Notes under the pieces: generated by a model
Told to the model about the DNA's origin: nothing
What the model saw: only the letters and a program-made list of their open reading frames with translations
Database searches by the model: none
NCBI RefSeq assembly: GCF_000018405.1
Contig: NC_009943.1
Span: forward strand, 2,731,001 to 2,795,000
Origin: Desulfosudis oleivorans Hxd3
GTDB taxonomy: Bacteria; Desulfobacterota; Desulfobacteria; Desulfobacterales; Desulfosudaceae
Direction: 5' to 3'
Length of the DNA: 64,000 nucleotides
In this document: positions 7,505 to 47,535 of the stretch, piece after piece
Numbering within the stretch: position 1 is the first letter of the stretch
Layout of the letters: every line of letters starts with the position of its first letter
Made by a program: the position numbers and the translations under genes

Positions 7505-8617
7505 ATGGGCAACCTGGTACTTGCCGGCGGTGGTCATGCCCACATGGTGGCCTTAAGCCGGATTGGCGAACTGGTAAACCGGGGCCACCGCGTCACCGTG
7601 ATCGGCCCTTCCCCCCACCACTACTACTCTGGCATGGGCCCGGGTATGCTGGGCGGCACCTATTCGCCTGAGGATATCCGGTTCGACACCCGTGGGGTGA
7701 CTGAAAAAAACGGCGGTACCTTTATGTGTGACCGGGTCGAACGCATCGACCCGGACCGGCGTAGCGTTCACCTGGCCTCCGGGGATAAAGTGTCTTACGA
7801 CGTGCTCTCCTGCAACCTGGGCAGCCATGTGCCCCGAAGTCTGGTTGCCGAAGACAGCGGCGGCATCTACACGGTAAAGCCCATTGAAAAACTCCTGGAG
7901 GCCCGACAGCGCGTCCTGGAAATCATCTCCCGGAAAAAGGCGGCCATTGTCGTGGCCGGCGGCGGGCCGGCGGCGGCGGAAGTGGTGGGCAACATTCATT
8001 ACCTGGCCGCCGGTTCAGGCCAGCAAATGCCCACCATTCACATGTGCGCGGGCACGGCATTCATGGCCCGTTTCCCTGAAAAGGTGCGCCGCCGGGTGCG
8101 CCGGTCCCTGGCCGGCCGGGGCATTGTGATCGATGAAACCGCCTTTGTCCAAACGGTTCAAACCGGTGCCGTCATCCTGGAATCGGGCAGGACCATCGAG
8201 GCAGACCTGGTTTTTCTGGCCCTGGGGGTTATTCCGTCACCGGTGTTTGAAACATCCGGCCTGTCCGTGGGCCCGGACAGGGGACTGCGGGTCAACGCCT
8301 TTCTCCAGTCCCCGGACCATCCGGAGATTTTCGGCGGCGGCGACTGTATCTATTTCGAACCACATCCCCTGGACAAGGTGGGGGTCTACGCGGTGCGCCA
8401 GAACCCGGTACTCTACGCCAATCTGCTGGCATCGCTGGAGGGCAAACCGCTTTTGCCCTTTGATCCGGGCGGCGACTACCTGCTGATTTTCAACCTGGGC
8501 CACCGCACCGGTGTGCTGAAAAAGCGGGGCCTGATCATGGAAGGGCGGCTCCCCTTTCTTCTGAAGGACTATATTGACAGGCGATTCATGACAAAATTCC
8601 AACGACTGGAGGAATAG
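7505..8617 (+). CDS. FAD-dependent pyridine nucleotide-disulfide oxidoreductase
   Basis: 370 residues. The N-terminal FAD motif LVLAGGGHAHM (residues 4-14) and the following PHHYYSGMGPGMLGG resemble the oxidoreductase domain found fused in front of SelD, and also NDH-2/sulfide-quinone reductase relatives. A second nucleotide fold is at about 147 (VVAGGGPAAAEVVG), and the FAD-contacting GGGDCIYF lies near 277. No CxxxxC redox pair is seen, so direct disulfide reduction of the glutathione-reductase type is unlikely. A quinone or sulfur acceptor is possible given the rhodanese-ferritin gene ending one base before it. No membrane helix is seen. Function beyond a flavin-dependent NAD(P)H or sulfide dehydrogenase cannot be fixed. 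Confidence 0.8.
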   Translation: MGNLVLAGGGHAHMVALSRIGELVNRGHRVTVIGPSPHHYYSGMGPGMLGGTYSPEDIRFDTRGVTEKNGGTFMCDRVERIDPDRRSVHLASGDKVSYDVLSCNLGSHVPRSLVAEDSGGIYTVKPIEKLLEARQRVLEIISRKKAAIVVAGGGPAAAEVVGNIHYLAAGSGQQMPTIHMCAGTAFMARFPEKVRRRVRRSLAGRGIVIDETAFVQTVQTGAVILESGRTIEADLVFLALGVIPSPVFETSGLSVGPDRGLRVNAFLQSPDHPEIFGGGDCIYFEPHPLDKVGVYAVRQNPVLYANLLASLEGKPLLPFDPGGDYLLIFNLGHRTGVLKKRGLIMEGRLPFLLKDYIDRRFMTKFQRLEE

Positions 8618-8618
8618 C

Positions 8619-8981
8619 ATGCAGCCGTTATACGAAACCGCCATGGAACTAACCGGGAAACTGAAGGCGGCACGCCTTCAGGCGGCCACGCTTTCCAAAA
8701 ACCTGACGGAAACCGAATACCGCCTGAAGGTCAAAAAGGCCGGAATCGAAAGGGCGCTGATCAAGCAGGTCAAAAACGAAAAGCTGCTGGGCAATACCCT
8801 TGAAGACCGCACCCGAATATTCACGCTGGCCCTGGACGCCGACACCGACTACCAGGACCTGCTCCGGCGGCATACCGACCTGACCATGGAACTGGAACAG
8901 GCCAAAATCGAGGCTTCGTTCATGCGGGACCGGCTGACCGTCACACTGGCGGCCATGAAAGCCGGTGAAGCGACAGAGTAA
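8619..8981 (+). CDS. Small coiled-coil protein of unknown function
   Basis: 120 residues, almost wholly helical and charged, with heptad-like spacing of Leu and Ala (LTGKLKAARLQAATLSKNL; LEQAKIEASFMRDRLTVTL). No cysteine, signal peptide or membrane helix is seen and the family is not recognised. It starts one base after the stop of the FAD oxidoreductase gene, so it is the last cistron of the Rrf2-MBL-rhodanese/ferritin-FAD group. A scaffold or partner role for those enzymes is a guess from position only. Confidence 0.65.
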   Translation: MQPLYETAMELTGKLKAARLQAATLSKNLTETEYRLKVKKAGIERALIKQVKNEKLLGNTLEDRTRIFTLALDADTDYQDLLRRHTDLTMELEQAKIEASFMRDRLTVTLAAMKAGEATE

Positions 8982-9017
8982 AAAAAGTTTAAAACCGCCG
9001 GCCCGCCTGCTTCGCAT

Positions 9018-9046
9018 TTGACAACGTGGCGGGGGTGCACTATGGT
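9018..9046 (+). promoter_or_regulatory. Sigma-70-type promoter for the GAF-ANTAR gene
   Basis: TTGACA at 9018-9023, a spacer of exactly 17 bases and TATGGT at 9041-9046. It lies 57 bp before the ATG of the GAF-ANTAR gene in the 121-bp gap after the preceding operon. Confidence 0.6.
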
Positions 9047-9102
9047 CCGTTCTGACAGACACCCCGTTACCGGCGGCACTGCAACCAGACCGGAGAACGC
9101 AC

Positions 9103-9813
9103 ATGCCCTATTCAGATATCCAGGACGCGGACAAGTATATCAAGGCACTGGCCCAGATCAGCCGGGCCATCACCTCTGAGCAGTACCTGGAGGACATTCT
9201 CAAACTCATCGTCATGGTCACGGCAAAAGTCACGGGCGTTGAGATCTGCTCTCTGTGGATTATTGAGGAGGAAGAGGGGGAGAAAGTGATCCGGCTCAAG
9301 GCCACCCAGGCCATTGACCAGGTCTACCTTAAAAACCGCAGCCTGCGCATGAACGAGGGGGTGGTGGGATACGTGGCCACCCACAGGGTTCCCATCATCA
9401 TTCCCAATGTCCTGCAGGAGCCCCGTTTCAAGGAAAAGGAGATGGCCCGGCAGCTGGGCCTGGTCTCCATGGTGGGCATCCCCATGCAGGTCCGCGACGA
9501 AGAGGTGACCGGCGTGCTCAACTGCTTCACCGCCGCGCCCCATGATTTTCCCGAAACCGAGGTCAACCTGATCACCGCCGTGGCCAACCAGGCGGCCGTT
9601 GCCATCCACAACACCAAGCTGATGGTGGATGCCCAGATTATCCGCGAGGAGCTGGAGAGCCGGAAGCTGATCGAGCGGGCCAAGGAGGTGATTGTGCGCA
9701 GGGGAAAAATGAACATGGAGGAGGCTTACCGCTGGATTCGCAAGCGCAGCATGGACACCCGCAAATCCATGCGGGACGTGGCCGAGGCCGTGCTGCTCTC
9801 CGAGGAGTTATAA
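9103..9813 (+). CDS. GAF - ANTAR transcription antitermination regulator
   Basis: 236 residues. A GAF sensor domain occupies about 15-170 (EDILKLIVMVTAKVTGVEIC to ANQAAVAIHNTKL), then a linker helix, then a C-terminal ANTAR domain of about 55 residues (RKLIERAKEVIVRRGKMNME, EAYRWIRKRSMD, SMRDVAEAVL). ANTAR domains bind paired hexaloop RNA hairpins in mRNA leaders and prevent termination; known members govern nitrate, amidase and ethanolamine genes. The GAF ligand is unknown and no phosphorylatable receiver is present, so it is a one-component sensor. The window holds nitrogen-assimilation genes nearby and a terminator-bearing leader at 11.46-11.6 kb, which is a possible target. GGAGAAC precedes the start. 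Confidence 0.88.
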   Translation: MPYSDIQDADKYIKALAQISRAITSEQYLEDILKLIVMVTAKVTGVEICSLWIIEEEEGEKVIRLKATQAIDQVYLKNRSLRMNEGVVGYVATHRVPIIIPNVLQEPRFKEKEMARQLGLVSMVGIPMQVRDEEVTGVLNCFTAAPHDFPETEVNLITAVANQAAVAIHNTKLMVDAQIIREELESRKLIERAKEVIVRRGKMNMEEAYRWIRKRSMDTRKSMRDVAEAVLLSEEL

Positions 9814-37044: not shown

Positions 37045-40000
37045 CTAAAAACTGAAACCGATACCCGCGTTGATGGTGGTCTGGCTGTTGCTGAAGCCGG
37101 CGCCGCCGGTGACCACGATGTTCTTGCTGAACACGCAGGCCTTACCGCCGATGGCGATAGCATCCTCACCATCATAATGGCCAAACCCGGCGCCAACGGA
37201 AAAGCATTTACCATTGACGGGGCCGGGAATGGCCGCCAGGGCGGCAACTGATGCCACACCGCCGGCAAACTCATCCATCCGCTTGTCCAGCCGGTCAATT
37301 TCACGCCTGAACTGCACGAAGTTGACCGCGTCAAAGTCATCCTCACCTTCAGCCACACCGGTCACGATAACAGGCTCACCGGTGCCCACTTCGGCAAAGG
37401 TGGCACCGTCGTCATTCAGGGTCAGCGAGGTGGAACCGGTTCCGCCGGCAATCACCGTACTGGTCTGGCTGATCAGAATGCCATGGGGCGCGCCACTTGC
37501 CGAGTTCACATACAGGCTGGCTTGGGTAGGCGTCACCTCAAGGCCGGCCTGGGCGTCGTTGGGCCCCACCGAATCGATGAAAATGCCGTTGTTGCTCACC
37601 GCCGCGCTCTGGGTGCCGTCGGCACTGACAAGCCGGGAGCTTGTGGCATCCACGATCATCTGGTTGGCCGTACCGGTGGAGGTGACCGTGGTCACGCCCA
37701 CAATGGTGTTGGTGGCACCGGTGATGGTGTTGGCCGATGTGCCGGCGTTACCAATAACGTTCACCGAGTTGGCCGTGGCAGCACCGATGTTGTTGGTAGC
37801 CGCCTCAATGTTGTTCGTGCCGTCCACGGCATTGGCTGTCAGGTTGTTGATGCCGCCGCTGGCGGTTGCCAGAATGTCGTTGGACACGTTGTCAACACCG
37901 CCGATGGTAACGGCAGTTGTCGTGCCATCGTTGGTGGCCTCGAGCACCTGGATTTCAGCGGTTGTATCGGTGCCCACCGCCAGTGTCGCGGCGGCATCCT
38001 CCAGGGTCAGCGAGGAGGAGTTGGAACCGCCGTTCAGCGTTGTGGTGTGGGATGCCTGGTCAACCGTCAGGCCATGGCCGTCGGCCGTCAGCAGGGTCAC
38101 CTGGCTGGTGTCACCCGTGCCGGTGGCAGTCATGCTGCCGCCGCCGGTCACACCCACCATCGCGCTGTCAGTGGTCAGTTCCACATTGGCGTTGCTGCTG
38201 GTCAGGGTCGTGGTATCACCGGCCTGGTCAACTGTCAGGCCATCGCCATCAGCTGTAATTGCTTCAACGAAGCTGTTGGCGCCCGTGCCGCTGACTGTCA
38301 TGTTACCGCCGCCCATCACCGTCATGGACACCTCATCGATATCGGCAATAACGCCTGCACCGGCGCCTGCGCCATCCATCACGCCCATGGCAACCGTACC
38401 GGCCGTGGTCATCACACCGGCATAAGCCCCGGAACCATTGTCCACATAAAGGTTCGCGGTGTCGGCGGACAGATCCACGATGGCGTTGTCGCCGGACATC
38501 GTACTGCTAGTTGCGCCGGTGATAGTATTCTCATCGCCTGTGATAGTGTTGGTACCCGACGCCGTAATGGTAGTGCTGGTGTCGGTCACCGTCATGCTCG
38601 CGCCGCCGGTCATACTCATGGTAACGTCGGTATCCGTGGCAACCAGACCTGACACACCGTCCACGCCAATGGCTGCGCTGTCCGTGGTCAGTTCCACATT
38701 GGCGTTGCTGCTGGTCAGGGTCGTGGTATCACCGGCCTGGTCAACTGTCAGGCCATCGCCGTCAGCTGTAATCGCTTCAACATAGCTGTTGACGCCCGTT
38801 CCGCTGACCGTCATGTTACCGCCGCCCATCACTGCCATGGACACTTCATCGATCTCGGCAATAACGCCTGCACCGGCACCTGCCCCATCTGTCACGCCCA
38901 TGGCAACCGTACCGGCTGTTGTCATTACACCGGCATAAGCCCCTGAACCATTATCCACGTACAGGTTGGCCGTGTCGGTGGTCAGGTCCACGACGGCGTT
39001 ATCACCGGTCACCGTGCTGCTTGTGGCACCGGTCATGGTGTTGGTGTCACCGGTAATGGTGTTGTCCGACACACCGGCGGTACCAATGGTGTTGGTGGTG
39101 CCGGTAGCGGTCAGAGCACCCTCCACATCCAGGGTGCCGTGCATAGTGGAGTCACCGTCCACAACCAGGTCGGTCTCCATTGTGGCAGTACCGGCCACGG
39201 ACAGGGCGCCGTTCAGGTCGGAGTCGCCAGCCACGATCAGGTCATCGTTCAGCGTGGTCGTGCCGTCAACCGTCAGGCTGCCGTCCATCTGGCTGTCACC
39301 GTTCACTACCAGGTCACTCTCCATTGTGGCAGTACCGGCCACGGACAGAGCGCCGTTCAGGTCGGAGTCGCCAGCCACGATCAGGTCATCATTGAGCGTG
39401 GTCGTTCCGTCAACCGTCAGGCTGCCGTCCATCTGGCTGTCACCGTTCACTACCAGGTCACTCTCCATTGTAGCGGTCCCGGCAACAGACAGGGCGCCGT
39501 TCAGGTCGGAGTCGCCAGCCACGATCAGATCGTCGTTCAGCGTGGTCGTGCCGTCAACCGTCAGGCTGCCGTCCATCTGGCTGTCACCGTTCACTACCAG
39601 GTCACTCTCCATTGTAGCGGTCCCGGCAACAGACAGGGCGCCGTTCAGGTCGGAGTCACCGGCCACGATCAGGTCATCGTTCAGCGTGGTCGTGCCGTCA
39701 ACCGTCAGGCTGCCGTCCATCTGGCTGTCACCGTTCACTACCAGGTCACTCTCCATTGTGGCAGTACCGGCCACGGACAGAGCGCCGTTCAGGTCGGAGT
39801 CGCCAGCCACGATCAGGTCATCATTGAGCGTGGTCGTTCCGTCAACCGTCAGGCTCCCGTCCACATCAGCGTCGCCGGCAATCCACGTATTGCCCGCGTT
39901 ATCAACGGTAAACGTATCGCCGTTGACGCTGTCATTGAGGACCGCGCCGCCGTCATCCAGTGTCCAGGAGGTTGAGTTGGCACCGCCGGTCAGGGTGGTG

Positions 40001-41799
40001 GTGCCGGTGGACTGGTCAACCGTCAGGCCATGTCCATCTTCCGTGGTAAGGGATACTAAACTGCTGTCTCCCGTACCAGAGACGGTCATACCGCCGCCAC
40101 CGATCACGCCCATAGACGCACTGTCGTCGGTCACCATCGTAAAGGCACCGCCGCTCACGGACATAATGACGTTGTCAACTTCGGCAACCACACCTGCGCT
40201 GCCTCCCAAGCCATCGGCCACACCCATTCTGATATCAGTGTCCGTGGCTCTCACGGCCGTGCCAGCGCCCGGACCAGTGATCACGGCCATACTCGCGCTG
40301 TCGGTGGTAAGACTTACACCGGCATTATCACCAATCATGGTGCTGCTTGCGCCGGTGATGGTGTTGATCGACGTGCCGACAGTACCAATGGTATTGGTGG
40401 TGCCGGTGGCGGTCAGGGCGCCCTCCACATCCAGGGTGCCAGCCACATCGGCATCACCCTGGAGATCGGCAAGGCCGGTCACGACCATGTCATTATTCAC
40501 CGTGGCTGTGCCGGTAACGGTCAGAGCACCACCCACATCGGCATCATTGGTTACGTCCAGGCTGCCGGCACCTACCGTTCCGCTGGCCGTCAGAGATCCG
40601 GTGGTCATGTCAGCAGCGTCTACCGTTCCGGTCGCGGTCAGGCTGGTCGTGGCCACATCGCCCGTGTTGTCTATGCCGTTGGTCGTGGCTGTGCCGGTAA
40701 CGGTCAGGGCACCGCCCACATCGGCGTCACCGGTCACGTCAAGCGTTCCGGCCGCTACCGTTCCGGTTGCGGTCAGGCTGGTCGTGGCCACATCGCCCGT
40801 GTTGTCTATGCTGTTGGTCGTGGCTGTGCCGGTAACGGTCAGGGCACCGCCCACATCGGCGTCACCGGTCACGTCAAGCGTTCCGGCCGCTACCGTTCCG
40901 GTCGCGGTCAGGCTGGTCGTGGCCACATCGCCTGTGTTGTCTATGCCGTTGGTCGTGGCTGTGCCGGTAACGGTCAGGGCACCGCCCACATCGGCGTCAC
41001 CGGTCACGTCAAGCGTTCCGGCCGCTACCGTTCCGGTTGCGGTCAGGCTGGTCGTGGCCACATCGCCCGTGTTGTCTATGCCGTTGGTCGTGGCTGTGCC
41101 GGTAACGGTCAGGGCACCGCCCACATCGGCGTCACCGGTCACGTCAAGCGTTCCGGCCGCTACCGTTCCGGTTGCGGTCAGGCTGGTCGTGGCCACATCG
41201 CCCGTGTTGTCTATGCTGTTGGTCGTGGCTGTGCCGGTAACGGTCAGGGCACCGCCCACATCGGCGTCACCGGTCACGTCAAGCGTTCCGGCCGCTACCG
41301 TTCCGGTCGCGGTCAGGCTGGTCGTGGCCACATCGCCTGTGTTGTCTATGCCGTTGGTCGTGGCTGTGCCGGTAACGGTCAGGGCACCACCCACATCGGC
41401 GTCACCGGTCACGTCAAGCGTTCCGGCCGCTACCGTTCCGGTCGCGGTCAGGCTGGTCGTGGCCACATCGCCTGTGTTGTCTATGCCGTTGGTCGTGGCT
41501 GTGCCGGTAACGGTCAGGGCACCACCCACATCGGCGTCACCGGTCACGTCAAGCGTTCCGGCCGCTACCGTGCCTGTAACCGACAGGCTGCCGGCAGATA
41601 CCGTACCGCTGGCAGTCAGGCTGCCGCCCACGGTCACAGCGTTAGTCGTATCGTCCACGGACAGGGTACCGCTGACGACACTACCATCTAACAGTACACC
41701 CAAATCCGCCGCCCATGCCGCGCCGCTCATGCCGTTTACAACTAAAACGGCCAGAAGCAGCATGGCGGGCAGGTTAAAAAACCTTTGCCATTTTTTCAT
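37045..41799 (-). CDS. Giant repeat protein with YadA-like anchor (trimeric autotransporter adhesin type)
   Basis: 1584 residues. A signal peptide covers about 1-31 (NLPAMLLLAVLVVNGMSGAA, then WA). Seven 45-residue repeats follow (about 70-390; unit with TLDVTGDADVGGALTVTGTA and IDNTGDVATT), then five 48-residue repeats (about 650-890; SLTVDGTTTLNDDLIVAGDS), then two copies of a roughly 160-residue block (TANLYVDNGSGAYAGVMTTA). The C-terminus (about 1485-1584) has a short coiled coil (FRREIDRLDKRMDEF) and four amphipathic strands ending AGIGFSF, as in the YadA beta-barrel anchor. It is probably a surface-exposed trimeric adhesin or fibre. Composition is Thr/Gly/Ala/Asp-rich with almost no Cys. 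It forms an operon with the gene 44 bp upstream. Confidence 0.88.
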   Translation of the reverse strand: MKKWQRFFNLPAMLLLAVLVVNGMSGAAWAADLGVLLDGSVVSGTLSVDDTTNAVTVGGSLTASGTVSAGSLSVTGTVAAGTLDVTGDADVGGALTVTGTATTNGIDNTGDVATTSLTATGTVAAGTLDVTGDADVGGALTVTGTATTNGIDNTGDVATTSLTATGTVAAGTLDVTGDADVGGALTVTGTATTNSIDNTGDVATTSLTATGTVAAGTLDVTGDADVGGALTVTGTATTNGIDNTGDVATTSLTATGTVAAGTLDVTGDADVGGALTVTGTATTNGIDNTGDVATTSLTATGTVAAGTLDVTGDADVGGALTVTGTATTNSIDNTGDVATTSLTATGTVAAGTLDVTGDADVGGALTVTGTATTNGIDNTGDVATTSLTATGTVDAADMTTGSLTASGTVGAGSLDVTNDADVGGALTVTGTATVNNDMVVTGLADLQGDADVAGTLDVEGALTATGTTNTIGTVGTSINTITGASSTMIGDNAGVSLTTDSASMAVITGPGAGTAVRATDTDIRMGVADGLGGSAGVVAEVDNVIMSVSGGAFTMVTDDSASMGVIGGGGMTVSGTGDSSLVSLTTEDGHGLTVDQSTGTTTLTGGANSTSWTLDDGGAVLNDSVNGDTFTVDNAGNTWIAGDADVDGSLTVDGTTTLNDDLIVAGDSDLNGALSVAGTATMESDLVVNGDSQMDGSLTVDGTTTLNDDLIVAGDSDLNGALSVAGTATMESDLVVNGDSQMDGSLTVDGTTTLNDDLIVAGDSDLNGALSVAGTATMESDLVVNGDSQMDGSLTVDGTTTLNDDLIVAGDSDLNGALSVAGTATMESDLVVNGDSQMDGSLTVDGTTTLNDDLIVAGDSDLNGALSVAGTATMETDLVVDGDSTMHGTLDVEGALTATGTTNTIGTAGVSDNTITGDTNTMTGATSSTVTGDNAVVDLTTDTANLYVDNGSGAYAGVMTTAGTVAMGVTDGAGAGAGVIAEIDEVSMAVMGGGNMTVSGTGVNSYVEAITADGDGLTVDQAGDTTTLTSSNANVELTTDSAAIGVDGVSGLVATDTDVTMSMTGGASMTVTDTSTTITASGTNTITGDENTITGATSSTMSGDNAIVDLSADTANLYVDNGSGAYAGVMTTAGTVAMGVMDGAGAGAGVIADIDEVSMTVMGGGNMTVSGTGANSFVEAITADGDGLTVDQAGDTTTLTSSNANVELTTDSAMVGVTGGGSMTATGTGDTSQVTLLTADGHGLTVDQASHTTTLNGGSNSSSLTLEDAAATLAVGTDTTAEIQVLEATNDGTTTAVTIGGVDNVSNDILATASGGINNLTANAVDGTNNIEAATNNIGAATANSVNVIGNAGTSANTITGATNTIVGVTTVTSTGTANQMIVDATSSRLVSADGTQSAAVSNNGIFIDSVGPNDAQAGLEVTPTQASLYVNSASGAPHGILISQTSTVIAGGTGSTSLTLNDDGATFAEVGTGEPVIVTGVAEGEDDFDAVNFVQFRREIDRLDKRMDEFAGGVASVAALAAIPGPVNGKCFSVGAGFGHYDGEDAIAIGGKACVFSKNIVVTGGAGFSNSQTTINAGIGFSF
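39120..39855. repeat. Tandem 144-bp coding repeat, five copies
   Basis: Within the adhesin gene a 144-bp unit (48 residues) recurs five times in tandem with very few changes. The most diverged copy is the one nearest 39.13 kb (reverse-strand 3' side), where ESDLVVNGDSQMDG becomes ETDLVVDGDSTMHG. The near identity at silent sites shows recent expansion or gene conversion. Confidence 0.9.
40620..41580. repeat. Tandem 135-bp coding repeat, seven copies with three-unit higher order
   Basis: Seven copies of a 135-bp unit (45 residues), shown by CTATGCCGTTGG/CTATGCTGTTGG recurring every 135 bases (40671, 40806, 40941, 41076, 41211, 41346, 41481). In order of translation the variable residue reads Gly, Gly, Ser, Gly, Gly, Ser, Gly. 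Linked silent changes (GGTCGCG/GGTTGCG and CGCCCGTG/CGCCTGTG) partly follow the same 405-bp period, so a three-unit block was duplicated. Confidence 0.9.
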
Positions 41800-42586: not shown

Positions 42587-42650
42587 CTCTTTTCTGATCT
42601 TAAGAGTACCTTAAGTTACTAATTTGAAAATAGATTGGACGCCAATGAAA

Positions 42651-42693
42651 AACGCCTGGTGTCCCATCTCTTTTTTTTGGGACACCAGGCGTT
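42651..42693 (-). terminator. Intrinsic terminator of the AOR operon
   Basis: AACGCCTGGTGTCCCA (42651-42666) and TGGGACACCAGGCGTT (42678-42693) form a perfect 16-bp stem around an 11-base loop. On the reverse strand it is followed by TTTTC, 24 bp after the stop of the last operon gene. Confidence 0.85.
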
Positions 42694-42716
42694 TCAAATT
42701 TCAAACAAAAAAAAGA

Positions 42717-43871
42717 CTATTCCGCCGCCGCCAGCATCTCCATCACCTGGGCCTGGCTGACGGTTTCCGGGCCAAGGGTGTCGGCATCTGCGGCCACGGC
42801 CTTTGCGATTTCGTCCCTGCCCGTGATCAGGCCCAGAGAAGCCAGGGTAAGCTTCAGGCCGGCCGAGGCCTGTACCTTGAGCATCAGGGTTTCCACTGCT
42901 TCAAGGGCGGCCTGGGGCCGCTGGTCCGCGGGCGTGGCCGCGTATTCTTCCGGTCCCTCCATGGCCAGCAGCAGCCGGGACAAAGCATCTTCGGCGCCTT
43001 TCATGCGGAGCCTGATCAGGCCCGGCACCAGGGCCGCTCCGGCCAGGTCCTCGGAAACCTTGCCGGCCGCGCCCACGGCCCTGGACAGGGCGAGCCCCAC
43101 ACCCTGGGTGATGTTGGAAGCCGCGATTTCCGAAAGCATGGCAGCAGCGGTGAGAATCGCTGACTGCTTTTTGCTGTTGACCCGTACCGCTTTGAGCAGA
43201 TTCGCAGAGAGCATCTCCAGGGCGCAGGCGGCAAAGGTGGTACTTACCGGATTTTGCTGAGGGCCGGTGGCCGCGTCCACGATCCGGTAAAGCGCTGCCA
43301 GGCCGCTTTTTGCCACCTCTTTGCCCGTGGCGGAGGCCATGACCCGGCTGTCAATAAAAACCGCCCGGGGCATCAGAAGCGAAGAGGCAAATTCATGGGC
43401 GCCGGTTCCGGCCCCCACTTTTAAGGTCATGGTAAGGGACGCCTTTTCCTGGGCCATGGTGGGAATGGCAAAAAAGGGCGGCAGAGGCCCTGCGATATTG
43501 TCATCCCCCGACGCGGCGGCCAGCTCCCTGCCGGTCAGTACCACGGCCACGGCCTTGGCCGTGTCGATGACCGAGACCCCGCCCAGAGCCAGAATCGAAT
43601 TGCACCCGGTCTTTCTGTAGATATCCGCAATCTCCCTGATCGCCGTTTCTTCAACCAGCTCAGGTGTTTGATCAAACACCGTGATTGGGGCGGATGTCCG
43701 GGCAAAGGCCCCGGCCAGAGCGCGAACGGCCTTTTTTTCGGTTTTGGGATCAGTGATCACCAGGGGGTTTCTTGCCGGAATCTGGTCCAGCTCCGGCGGA
43801 ATCTGCTCCAGGGCCAGTGCGCCGTAAAAAACCTTGGTCTTATGTATGAAACTGTAGGAAGCGGGGATCAT
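42717..43871 (-). CDS. Iron-alcohol-dehydrogenase paralogue lacking metal ligands (probable pseudoenzyme)
   Basis: 384 residues, alignable end to end with the active-looking alcohol dehydrogenase at 45794-46978. The Asp-His pair GMDAMTH (198, 202 there) is GLAALYR here (A192, R196); the third ligand H271 is R264 and the fourth, in LPHG, is E274 (VSED). The nucleotide loop GGGSAID reads GGVSVID, and PTTGGTGSE reads PTMAQEKAS. All four metal ligands and part of the NAD site are lost while the overall fold and frame are kept, so selection for a non-catalytic role is likely (structural, regulatory or metabolite binding). It is the last gene of the AOR operon, 29 bp after AOR. GGAGAAG precedes the ATG. 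Confidence 0.85.
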   Translation of the reverse strand: MIPASYSFIHKTKVFYGALALEQIPPELDQIPARNPLVITDPKTEKKAVRALAGAFARTSAPITVFDQTPELVEETAIREIADIYRKTGCNSILALGGVSVIDTAKAVAVVLTGRELAAASGDDNIAGPLPPFFAIPTMAQEKASLTMTLKVGAGTGAHEFASSLLMPRAVFIDSRVMASATGKEVAKSGLAALYRIVDAATGPQQNPVSTTFAACALEMLSANLLKAVRVNSKKQSAILTAAAMLSEIAASNITQGVGLALSRAVGAAGKVSEDLAGAALVPGLIRLRMKGAEDALSRLLLAMEGPEEYAATPADQRPQAALEAVETLMLKVQASAGLKLTLASLGLITGRDEIAKAVAADADTLGPETVSQAQVMEMLAAAE

Positions 43872-43900
43872 TCATCTTCTCCTTTTTTTTCGATAAAGAC

Positions 43901-45760
43901 TCACGCGGCAATCTCAAGCTTTTTGAGCAGTTCCGGCGAAGGCTTGCCTTCCGGCGTAAATCCGCGCAGGCGGTAGTACTGGTCCCGCATCTCCTCCAGG
44001 GGCACGGTGCGGCCTTTTTTGTCGCACTTGCGGCTTTCGGTCAACAGCCGCTTGGGAAGGGTGTCGGTTTTTACCGAAGCCCCCATGCGGGTATTCATAT
44101 ACCGCTCCAGGACGTGAATGCGCTCACCAGCCCTCAAGAATTCGGACTTTGAAATGGAAATGCCGGTCACGGCCTGCCACATCTTGCGATAAACCACTGA
44201 AAAGTCCACAACCATGGTCAGCACCTGGGGGAAAAACTGCATACCGATCAGGGTGGATATCCAGCTGGACATTCTGGGGATCAGCAGTTCCGTGGTATAG
44301 GCATAGGAGGTGAACAGGCAGGTATGCAGGGAGTTGACGCAGCACCACATGTCCTCGAAAACCTTTGTCCACCGGGCCTTGGACAGGGTGGTGTGCGGCG
44401 CCAGAAAACACATGAAGTTTTCCATGGCCATCATGGTGGAACTCAGATGGCAGGCCCCCCGGTTGGCAACGGCGTAGGAAAGCCCATGGCCGTAACTGCC
44501 CCGGGGATCATAGGCGGACAGCTCCATGCCCTTGACGTGCATGGCAAACTCGGTGCCGCCGTATTTTTCGGACAGTCTCCTGGAGCCACCTGCCATCTCC
44601 GCGCCAAACCCCCGGCAGTAGGCGATGTCGGCCAGGGCCTCGTCCACGCCCTCGGGGCTGCCGAACTTCAGGTTGCTTTTCACCAGATCTTTTTCCGTGG
44701 CCTCCATGACCCAGCTCAGGGTGCCGCCGGCGGATATGGTGTCCATGCCCATGTCCCCGCAAACCTTGTTCCACCGGGCAATGATCACAGGGTCATAAAT
44801 CTCCAGGTTGGAGCCCATCAGGCCAACTGTCTCATACTCGGGCACCGGCATCTCCTTGCCGTCAAACACTCCCTTTTTACCGCATAAAATGGTGCAGGGT
44901 TTGCAGGTATGGTGGCTGGTATTGTATTTTTCCCGAATGAGCTCACCGGTGAGCTTATAAGCGTTGTCCGAGGTGCCGTCCTGGAAATTGCGCACCGGCA
45001 GAATGCCCGTGGTACGGGTGATGTTGACAATGCTCAGGGTGCCGTACTTGCGCTGGCCGTCCGAGGTCCAGGGATTGCGGTTGATGTAGTCGGTGGCCGT
45101 CTTCTTGATCTTGTCAAAGGCCGCCTTGTTTTTGGGGACAATCTTGAAGGCCTTGCCCACGGCGCAAATGGCCTTGAGCCTTTTGGCGCCCATCACCGCG
45201 CCCATGCCGCCCCGGCCCAGGTACCGTTCGCCCGACGCAATGTTGGCGAAACTCACCCCGTTCTCTCCGGCCGGTCCGATCACCAGGGACTGGCCCTCTT
45301 TCGCCAGCAGGGCCTGGGTCTCCTGAGTGTCCTTGCCCCACAGATCGGCCGCGTCCTTAAAGGTGACGCCCTTTGAATCCAGCAGCAGCCAGACCGGCTT
45401 TTCGGAAGTCCCCTTTATCAGAATCCCGTCCCATCCCGCGGTTTTTAAGGCCATGCCAAAGGGGCCGCCGCAGGAAGAAGAAACCATGACCCCGGTCTGG
45501 GGCGACTTGGCAACCGCGGCAAACCGGCCGGAACAGGGGGCACCGGTGCCCATGAGCACGCCGGGCATGACCGCCAGGATATTGTCCGGCCCCAGGGGGT
45601 CGGCATCCATGGGCATGCGATCGTAAATCAGTTTCAGGCCCAGCCCCTTGCCGCCCAGGTACATCTTCCGGTCCCGGTCGGTAATGGTGACCACGTCAAA
45701 TGTCTGTTGTGTCAGGTCTACTTCCAGTACCTTGTTACTGGTGCCGATAAGCTCTTGCAT
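43901..45760 (-). CDS. Tungsten-dependent aldehyde:ferredoxin oxidoreductase
   Basis: 619 residues, the normal AOR size. The N-terminal pterin domain shows TDRDRKMYLGGKGLGLKLIY and SGRFAAVAKSPQTGVMVSSS. The cubane ligands are CKPCTILC (about 283-290) and a fourth Cys near 479 (VNSLHTCLF). It oxidises aldehydes to acids with ferredoxin as acceptor, or runs in reverse to reduce acids. The neighbouring Fe-dependent alcohol dehydrogenase would convert the alcohol to the aldehyde, so together they allow alcohol oxidation to acid or ferredoxin-driven alcohol formation. GGGGGGAG precedes the ATG. Molybdopterin-tungsten cofactor genes are not in the window. Confidence 0.93.
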   Translation of the reverse strand: MQELIGTSNKVLEVDLTQQTFDVVTITDRDRKMYLGGKGLGLKLIYDRMPMDADPLGPDNILAVMPGVLMGTGAPCSGRFAAVAKSPQTGVMVSSSCGGPFGMALKTAGWDGILIKGTSEKPVWLLLDSKGVTFKDAADLWGKDTQETQALLAKEGQSLVIGPAGENGVSFANIASGERYLGRGGMGAVMGAKRLKAICAVGKAFKIVPKNKAAFDKIKKTATDYINRNPWTSDGQRKYGTLSIVNITRTTGILPVRNFQDGTSDNAYKLTGELIREKYNTSHHTCKPCTILCGKKGVFDGKEMPVPEYETVGLMGSNLEIYDPVIIARWNKVCGDMGMDTISAGGTLSWVMEATEKDLVKSNLKFGSPEGVDEALADIAYCRGFGAEMAGGSRRLSEKYGGTEFAMHVKGMELSAYDPRGSYGHGLSYAVANRGACHLSSTMMAMENFMCFLAPHTTLSKARWTKVFEDMWCCVNSLHTCLFTSYAYTTELLIPRMSSWISTLIGMQFFPQVLTMVVDFSVVYRKMWQAVTGISISKSEFLRAGERIHVLERYMNTRMGASVKTDTLPKRLLTESRKCDKKGRTVPLEEMRDQYYRLRGFTPEGKPSPELLKKLEIAA

Positions 45761-45793: not shown

Positions 45794-46978
45794 TCAGGCA
45801 TAGGCCCGATTAAGGATATTCAACGCGTCCTGGTATTCAATCTCAATGGGATTGAAATTGGCGGCCCCGTCGCTTACCGCTATTCGGGCCACCTTTTCCA
45901 GTTTGTTTCTGGGCACACCGGCCTGTTCCAGGCAGACGGGCAGGCCGCTGGTCCGGTTCAGGGTCTTGATCAGGTCCCGCACGGTGGCGATGGACTTTTC
46001 GGCCCGCTGTTTCTTCGGTGTTGCCGCAAACACCTCTGGGCCGGCCAGCACCAGCAGCATGTCGGACAGAACATCCCGGGCCTTGGGCAGGTTGAACTCC
46101 ATGCCAAAAGGCAGAATAATGGCATTGGCAATGCCGTGGGGAAGGTGGCATACACCGCCCAGGGCATGGGCCACGGCATGAACCACTCCCACCATGGAGT
46201 TGGAAAAGGCAATACCGGCCAGCATGGCCCCGGTGGCAACGGCCAGCCGCACATCTTCATCGTCCCCGTCGGTCACGGCTTTGGGCAGATTTGCCACGAG
46301 CAGTTCAATGGCGGACCAGGCAAAGGCATCACTCACCGGGTTGCGCTGAATGCTCATGAAGGTTTCCACGGCGTGGGTCATGGCGTCCATGCCCGTGGCC
46401 GCCGTGATTTTGGGGGGCATGGTCTTTGTCATGCGCGGATCCAGAATCGTGAAGTCCGGCAGCATCAGGGGCGTGGTGAACTGCATTTTTACCCCCAGAT
46501 CCGGGTTGGCGATCACCGCGGCCATGGTCACTTCAGAGCCGGTGCCGCCGGTGGTGGGAATCACCACAAACGGTTTCATCACGGCCCGGACCCGGTTGTT
46601 GCCCGTGAACTTCATCAGGTCGTCGGTGTTTTCCGACAGCACGATGTTGACACCCTTGGCCGTGTCAATGGCCGAGCCGCCGCCCACCGCAATGATGGAA
46701 TCGCACCCCTTTTCCCGATAAATGGCGGCAATGGCATTGACCGCGTGAATGGAGGAGTCCACCGGTGTTTCGTCGTAAACGGCGCCGATGGAGACCCCGG
46801 ACCCGGCCACGTTCTCTTCCACCACCTTGACCAGGCCGGCATTGACCACCCCTTTATCAGTGACCAGAATCGGCTTCTTGACACCCAGGTTCAGCAGTTC
46901 CTCGGGCAGCCGGGCCAGGGCCTGCTTTCCGGCCACGACCTTAACGGAGTTGAAATACTCGAAATACTTGGGAATCAT
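45794..46978 (-). CDS. Iron-containing alcohol dehydrogenase
   Basis: 394 residues from ATG 46978 (AGGAG upstream; the open frame continues but lacks homology). NAD motif AVGGGSAIDTAKG (98-109) and PTTGGTGSEVT (141-151). The four metal ligands of the family are intact: D198 and H202 (TGMDAMTHAVETF), H271 (VAHALGG) and H281 (LPHGIAN). It interconverts primary alcohols and aldehydes with NAD(H) in the cytoplasm. It is the second gene of the operon, with AOR 33 bp downstream and the SCP2-like gene 23 bp upstream, so its aldehyde product is probably passed to AOR. Confidence 0.92.
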   Translation of the reverse strand: MIPKYFEYFNSVKVVAGKQALARLPEELLNLGVKKPILVTDKGVVNAGLVKVVEENVAGSGVSIGAVYDETPVDSSIHAVNAIAAIYREKGCDSIIAVGGGSAIDTAKGVNIVLSENTDDLMKFTGNNRVRAVMKPFVVIPTTGGTGSEVTMAAVIANPDLGVKMQFTTPLMLPDFTILDPRMTKTMPPKITAATGMDAMTHAVETFMSIQRNPVSDAFAWSAIELLVANLPKAVTDGDDEDVRLAVATGAMLAGIAFSNSMVGVVHAVAHALGGVCHLPHGIANAIILPFGMEFNLPKARDVLSDMLLVLAGPEVFAATPKKQRAEKSIATVRDLIKTLNRTSGLPVCLEQAGVPRNKLEKVARIAVSDGAANFNPIEIEYQDALNILNRAYA

Positions 46979-47001: not shown

Positions 47002-47535
47002 TTATTTGACCTGTCCGAGAACGCCCCAGGTCCAGAAAATGATCCGGTTTCGCACCATGAGCCACGAAAATTTAGGCACCTTTTTGATGTAAAGGCCGGT
47101 GATCACCGGAAGCATCAGGGCCTGGACCCGGTTCATGCACCGGATGATGGAACTGGCCAGGACCAGGTCACCCTTGACGTACTGGCGGTTCTCCGCGATG
47201 ATGCGGGGCATGCTCATCAGGCCCATCATCATGCGGAAGATAAATTCAACGTTCTTGATGGCGATCACCACATCGGCGTTGACGATCTCCTTTTCGCCCA
47301 GGTACTGAAAGGTGCCGTTGCGCTTGACAAGGGTCATGCACGGCCCGTCGGGCTCCACGTTCATGACGATGCACACCGTTTCCGGCCAGGCATCGATCTC
47401 TTTTTTCACCTCCGGGTCCAGCCGGTAGGCGGTCTGGAAGGCGTGGCCCAGGCTCAAAAAAACAAGGCGCACAATTGATGTTTGAATGTGCTTTCTGCCG
47501 GGTTTAATCTGGTAATACCGCGATGGTGAAGCCAT
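47002..47535 (-). CDS. SCP2-like lipid-binding-domain protein
   Basis: 177 residues. The pattern WPETVCIVMNVEPDGPCMTL, then KEIVNADVVIAIKNVEFIFR and MPRIIAENRQYVKGDLVLAS resembles the SCP2 sterol-carrier fold used to hold hydrophobic ligands. No signal peptide; the basic N-terminus (YYQIKPGRKHIQTSIVRLVF) may touch the membrane. It is the first gene of the AOR operon (GGAGGAACAACAGC before ATG) and may present a lipophilic alcohol or aldehyde to the following enzymes, or belong with them for another reason. The assignment is moderate. Confidence 0.65.
   Translation of the reverse strand: MASPSRYYQIKPGRKHIQTSIVRLVFLSLGHAFQTAYRLDPEVKKEIDAWPETVCIVMNVEPDGPCMTLVKRNGTFQYLGEKEIVNADVVIAIKNVEFIFRMMMGLMSMPRIIAENRQYVKGDLVLASSIIRCMNRVQALMLPVITGLYIKKVPKFSWLMVRNRIIFWTWGVLGQVK

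Follow-up and report, generated by a model that had tools for sequence, protein, structure and literature searches.

We analyzed a window of 64,000 nucleotides (positions 2,731,001 to 2,795,000 of contig NC_009943.1) from the genome of Desulfosudis oleivorans Hxd3, which consists of one contig of 3,944,167 bases; the coordinates below are counted from the first letter of this window. On its minus strand, four genes follow one another in the order SCP2-like gene, active-type iron-containing alcohol dehydrogenase (Fe-ADH), aldehyde:ferredoxin oxidoreductase (AOR) and, in the last position, a ligand-less Fe-ADH paralogue, from here on the dead ADH. The first gene (47002-47535) encodes a small SCP2-like protein of 177 amino acids and is followed after 23 nt by P0002, the active-type paralogue (45794-46978), whose four ligands and NAD loops are intact and whose start at 46978 is a chosen one, the list of open reading frames giving a longer frame. 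After a gap of 33 nt comes the AOR gene (43901-45760; 619 amino acids, with PF01314 and PF02730), and 29 nt beyond the AOR stop begins the dead ADH (42717-43871; 384 amino acids), preceded by a Shine-Dalgarno-like AGGAG at 43879-43883. An earlier note on this DNA had placed the gene in an AOR operon and had described the chain as full length and in frame; the one-strand cluster with its short gaps, the ATG start and the lack of any internal stop bear out both statements. The same note had spoken of a good terminator: a perfect 16-bp inverted repeat with a loop of 13 nt (42650-42694, minus strand; arms 42650-42665 and 42679-42694) lies 22 bp past the dead-ADH stop and is the probable terminator of the operon, but its T-run is short, with five T of which three are inside the stem, and a consensus scan with a loop limit of 8 did not list it. 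Beyond the operon end, a minus-strand gene at 37045-41799 encodes a highly repetitive protein of 1584 amino acids, with many near-identical repeats and a signal-like start.

The dead ADH aligned with P0002 over its whole length, with 32% identity. The ligands of P0002 are D198, H202, H267 and H281, with the same spacing as in the solved relative BkTauF, for which the excerpt of PMC6616044 gives D192, Q196, H261 and H275 as metal-site positions. In the alignment, the dead ADH carries A192 (minus-strand codon 43296-43298) in place of Asp198, R196 (43284-43286) in place of His202, L260 (43092-43094) in place of His267 and E274 (43050-43052) in place of His281, and the Asp/His/His/His site is absent. 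The loss of all four ligands had already been claimed, and the changes of Asp to Ala, of the first His to Arg and of the last His to Glu had been read correctly; the second His to Arg of that list, however, does not concern a ligand, because the ligand His267 is replaced by Leu, and R264 (43080-43082, minus strand) replaces His271, the next conserved His, four residues past it. Damage to the NAD loops had also been rightly seen, as GGGS of P0002 has become GGVS and TTGGTGSE has become TMAQEKAS, with neither GxG nor G.E kept. The protein was nevertheless matched by both Pfam domains of the family (PF00465 with 84.4 bits against a cut-off of 31.3, and PF25137 with 34.6 against 27), and an AF2 model, built from an alignment that included two active relatives, reached a pLDDT of 80.9 and superposed on FucO with a Z of 40.5 and 2.8 Å over 372 residues. 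The dead ADH is thus a member of the iron-ADH superfamily by profile and fold that fails the metal and NAD criteria of an iron ADH, and the metal-site loss read from the alignment excludes catalysis in the usual way.

Close relatives of the dead ADH were then sought, as homologues sharing its substitutions had been proposed as a check on its retention. A threshold of E 1e-44 was passed by 14 of 389 genomes of the order. A ligand-less orthologue was found only in the window genome and in one further genome (G001), a count that is a lower bound, since the order and phylum searches scored the best four candidates per genome at most; the other genomes passing this threshold contributed intact Fe-ADHs with 30-34% identity. 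The orthologue of G001 shows about 53% identity (52-53%) and lies in the same four-gene operon. With the same limit of four candidates each, 395 genomes of the phylum gave no additional ligand-less orthologue at the search threshold. A third orthologue was recognized in an uncultured Desulfohalobiaceae MAG (locus L055), with 41% identity and directly after an AOR gene; the contig begins inside this AOR, leaving genes further upstream out of view. The search of this MAG gave no SCP2-like gene, and its remaining Fe-ADHs share 38% and 31% identity with P0002. The residues at the four ligand positions are ARLE in the window, and ARLR and AKFG in the two others. A third genus of this family was sampled with G002 (locus L047); the 18 kb fetched from it contain an active Fe-ADH and an SCP2-like gene but lack a dead copy. 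A pattern scan of viral contigs gave no relative, and the same scan of genome contigs gave only two loci, the short patterns limiting its reach and the records nearest to the window being possibly absent from the collection.

The wider family proved much more common. Across the Desulfobacterota, we found tandem Fe-ADH pairs, one member intact and the other ligand-less, with an adjoining SCP2-like gene and usually an AOR gene. The window's dead ADH is of this type: its ligands are lost, and it lies near an active Fe-ADH, an SCP2-like gene and an AOR. A profile search with the SCP2-like protein was positive in 25 of the 395 genomes sampled from the phylum and in 99 of the 389 sampled from the order, and both positive sets include the window genome. 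The 122 loci collected comprise 121 with an SCP2-like gene plus L055, and Fe-ADHs were counted within 4.5 kb of the SCP2-like gene. Both a dead and an active Fe-ADH were present in 68 loci, only an active one in 43, only a dead one in 7 and neither in 4. Left out of these counts were two SCP2-like matches at contig edges (G235:C132 and G333:C431), four short ADH fragments at contig ends, and L050, L051, L191 and L192, which lack the SCP2-like gene. Contig ends cut six of the seven dead-only loci, and the seventh, L085, is a real exception: its SCP2-like gene and dead Fe-ADH (7557-9338) are followed by 7.5 kb with neither an active Fe-ADH nor an AOR. As separate observations, the Fe-ADH frames of L022, L023, L024, L025, L028, L050 and L051 are 613-632 amino acids long, with the match ending at about query residue 300 and a part of each frame left unexplained, and L050 and L051 have neither an SCP2-like gene nor an AOR nearby. 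Locus L098 (G341) holds an active and a dead Fe-ADH; for Desulfobacterium autotrophicum HRM2, the part of PMC2702500 available speaks of a single alcohol dehydrogenase gene.

The 75 dead copies, which include that of the window and its two orthologues, have lost the metal site in varied ways. The last His was kept in none of them and neither was the Asp (four copies have a gap in this column), the second ligand was kept in 14 and the third in 26, and 48 kept no ligand at all; the Asp column held I, T, A, G, S, L, R and others. The strict NAD-loop motifs, GGGS and GTGSE, were present in 112 of 112 active copies and in one dead copy each, and the relaxed residues persisted more often (GxG in 57 of 75, G.E in 54 of 75), so residual nucleotide binding is possible, on these motifs, in the wider dead family. 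In all 69 dead/active pairings, counting the second active copy of L076, both genes were on the same strand, and the dead gene was upstream of the active one in 66, the exceptions being the window, G001 and the second, more distant ADH of L076. In the window and G001 the dead gene comes instead after the AOR gene.

A tree of the Fe-ADHs with the catalytic columns masked placed the active rows in two groups, with 9 (100/99) and 12 (99/89) representatives, and each of the 112 active copies was assigned to its nearest representative. Each of the 66 copies assigned to the group of 9 had a dead copy in its locus, whereas 43 of the 46 assigned to the group of 12 had none; the three that did were again those of the window and of G001 and the second ADH of L076. 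One branch of active enzymes therefore always has a dead neighbor, and the window lineage is an exception inside the other branch. As 43 of the 122 loci have an active Fe-ADH and no dead copy, the active enzyme does not generally depend on one. Two kinds of AOR are found in these loci, one similar to that of the window and the other much more distant, and dead Fe-ADHs are beside both, which suggests a closer tie of the dead copy to the active Fe-ADH than to any one AOR.

This distribution raises the question of whether the window's copy shares its origin with the other dead ADHs, or whether its lineage made a dead copy independently and the likeness is convergence. The masked tree separated all dead from all active rows by one branch (100/99) and grouped the three orthologues with the dead copies of two other families (100/92), and the unmasked tree with outgroups also joined them to other dead copies (93/95, with a long-branch warning). 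Topology tests did not, however, reject the alternatives: the dead and active groups of the window as one clade gave AU p values of 0.467 (first set) and 0.121 (second set), and a tree uniting the three orthologues with all active rows gave 0.084 (second set). A local duplication of P0002 was likewise neither demonstrated nor rejected as the origin of the dead ADH. A separate recruitment in the window lineage, through transfer or a new duplication, is suggested by its deviating gene order and by the branch to which its active partner belongs, and convergence stays a serious, though minority, explanation.

We next considered whether the dead copies are under selection. Neutral simulation was run at 1.96, the full synonymous distance separating the gene from its nearest orthologue, and at half this distance (0.98), and an open frame was kept in 0 of 500 replicates at each; at 0.98 and 1.96, respectively, the simulated genes had on average 12.9 and 16.7 stops and an identity of 19% and 9%, against about 52% observed. 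The earlier statement that the gene is not the result of random decay is borne out by these data. Comparison of the window with G001 (NG86, near saturation) gave a dN of 0.42 and a dS of 1.96 for the dead ADH, and 0.16 and 1.91 for the active one. In the 23 pairs with a dead-copy identity of at least 70%, which involve 28 loci with lineages in common and so do not count as independent, dN/dS was 0.14-0.43 for dead and 0.06-0.24 for active copies. The dead value was the higher one in 362 of 362 pairs with a dS of 0.05-1.5, and it climbed in deeper pairs up to 1.10, with two of the 362 above 1, a climb that we ascribed to saturation. The dead ADHs are thus conserved but looser: purifying selection, which had been suggested as a check, was found, but weaker than that on the active partner. 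Since the window's trio is absent from the close pairs, its own evidence consists of the retained frame and the identity. Together, the 75 ligand-less copies, among them two orthologues beside an AOR, and the signature of purifying selection support a retained non-catalytic or new function, as had been proposed, and the more specific functions discussed below are inferences. That reading had missed the SCP2-like gene and the generality of the dead-ADH pattern across this operon type.

Conservation along the chain was uneven. The ratio of conservation in dead to that in active copies was 0.92 for residues 1-40, to which the only modest conservation of this segment in active copies (0.45) contributes, and 0.36-0.66 in nine other regions, with 0.36-0.58 in the NAD-loop and ligand regions and 0.51-0.66 elsewhere. 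In absolute terms, conservation of dead copies was highest around the first NAD loop (0.49), and residues 1-40 reached 0.42. According to the excerpt of PMC6616044, the dimer of BkTauF and FucO is formed by an antiparallel sheet of the N-terminal strands beta1 and beta2. N-terminal conservation together with these dimer strands of the relatives fits a heterodimer of dead and active copies, and a homodimer of the dead ADH equally. Mirror-tree analysis gave a correlation of 0.72 between dead and active distances (62 loci) and a partial correlation of 0.45 given AOR and SCP2-like distances, with a partial value of 0.41 for dead ADH against AOR; these correlations carry no significance test and were counted as weak.

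The SCP2-like gene and the AOR are also linked, as both are encoded in a single open frame, with the AOR first, at 14 loci (L105, L107, L112, L115, L117, L123, L125, L138, L141, L147, L148, L153, L186 and L187). Twelve of these frames are 806-845 amino acids long; L148 has only a piece of the AOR, and the frame of L186 is longer. Judged from the frames, they may encode an AOR-SCP2 fusion enzyme, and the sharing of one frame suggests that the two products work together. Pfam SCP2 matched 5 of 23 members of the SCP2-like family, with a best E of 2.1e-4, the window's copy having no Pfam match of any kind, and a structure model from two sequences was poor (pLDDT 49.8). The name SCP2 is therefore weak, and the protein hints at hydrophobic substrates.

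Considering all these data, our preferred reading, to which we give a probability of roughly one half, is that the dead ADH is a pseudoenzyme and pairs, as a non-catalytic subunit, with the active Fe-ADH of the same operon. Pairing would take place through the dimer-forming N-terminal strands of the family, and the dead ADH may stabilize or tune the active enzyme, or serve to dock it with the SCP2-like protein and the AOR. The active Fe-ADH would then oxidize an alcohol to the aldehyde with NAD, and the AOR would oxidize the aldehyde to the acid with ferredoxin, the aldehyde not being released; the heteromer, the docking, the channeling and the substrate are what we infer here. Several observations count against a partner of this kind: 43 loci have an active Fe-ADH alone, the active copies of the window and G001 sit in the branch that is mostly without dead neighbors, their dead gene follows the AOR, and the dead ADH of L085 has no active Fe-ADH in the 7.5 kb downstream. 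In more general terms, a ligand-less ADH is preserved in many sulfate reducers beside a working one, probably as a structural or regulatory partner. A bolder version, in which this widespread pseudoenzyme branch is an obligate subunit of a machine of active Fe-ADH, a lipid-binding SCP2-like protein and tungsten AOR that passes on hydrophobic aldehydes, and was recruited again, in another gene order, by the window lineage, is put forward only tentatively, and we regard it as somewhat doubtful.

A different role for the dead ADH would be that of an ADH-like sensor or regulator, which would bind an alcohol, an aldehyde, NAD(H) or another ligand and control expression or activity. The analogy is ErcA, a putative iron-containing ADH of Pseudomonas that takes part in regulating ethanol use according to a title cited in PMC12997753, and ErcA (NF041833) was the best NCBIfam match of the dead ADH by score. 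The cut-off of this model is, however, 550, and the dead ADH scored 100 where the intact P0002 reached 307, indicating family likeness only. Ligand binding is conceivable in the wider family, given the relaxed loop residues described above, but not on that basis in the window's protein, which lacks both. In L085, the dead ADH adjoins a membrane signaling-like ORF, a label that is our own reading and not the result of a family search; in the window, none of the four operon proteins matched a Pfam regulator family, the SCP2-like protein being without any match. Taken together, a regulatory role seems rather unlikely.

It is also conceivable that the dead ADH is a metal-free enzyme with a new chemistry. 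Maleylacetate reductases, of the same superfamily, work without a metal, and the catalytic residues of one of them, PcpE, are His172/Lys238. Such enzymes were among the structural matches of the dead-ADH model, and PcpE evolved from an iron-containing ADH, as the portion of PMC5741723 available states. The partial NAD-loop residues of many dead copies would agree with an enzyme of this kind, but the strict motifs are nearly absent, the ligand positions hold many different residues, which is not what selection on an active site would leave, and the loops are more eroded in the window's copy than in most others; we consider such an enzyme improbable. That the gene is a decaying duplicate on its way out is very improbable and largely refuted, because the raised dN/dS in every pair, the deep values up to 1.10 and the rarity of close orthologues (2 of 389 order genomes including the window's own, at the best four or fewer candidates each) are outweighed by a frame kept open between genera and between classes, with identities of 53% and 41%, by the low dN/dS of close pairs in the wider family, by 75 dead copies in all and by the failure of any frame to survive neutral simulation.

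If the preferred reading of a non-catalytic partner is true, these operons would encode a multi-gene alcohol-oxidizing system in sulfate reducers, some of which, like Hxd3, degrade alkanes. With the AOR/SCP2-like fusions of some genomes, this recurrent operon offers testable candidates for the handling of reactive aldehydes, and for annotation it is a warning that a Fe-ADH family match in such genomes may have no metal site. The retention of inactive paralogues beside active ones is a known theme. An inactive Fe-ADH paralogue beside an active one, or a ligand-less Fe-ADH in an AOR operon, is not described among the open-licence literature matches listed, at the level of titles and abstract starts. 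For Desulfococcus multivorans, the excerpt of PMC5109826 reports one ADH raised on n-butanol and 1-propanol, and one AOR present under all conditions.

The closest known proteins are the group III Fe-ADHs, among them FucO, DhaT and the sulfoacetaldehyde reductase BkTauF, with which the dead ADH shares the predicted fold from end to end, the two Pfam domains and the N-terminal dimer-strand region, conserved in dead ADHs; it differs from them by the lack of the four metal ligands and both NAD loops. ErcA is likewise a Fe-ADH relative with a proposed regulatory role, but the dead ADH stays far below its profile cut-off, and the gene neighborhoods differ, ercA having a hybrid histidine kinase next to it in the fragment of the source at hand. 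Maleylacetate reductases are a further case of diverged active-site chemistry within the superfamily, but they are active NADH-dependent enzymes, whereas the window's protein keeps neither dinucleotide loop. AorABC of Aromatoleum aromaticum resembles the present system as a tungsten AOR with further subunits, described as a "protein nanowire"; the excerpt of PMC10413684 does not mention an ADH-fold subunit in it. AdhE spirosomes also contain the ADH fold, in an assembly said in the excerpt of PMC12204686 to confine an aldehyde intermediate. In AdhE, however, the aldehyde dehydrogenase and an active ADH domain are joined in a single chain, whereas here the components are encoded by separate genes, together with an AOR.
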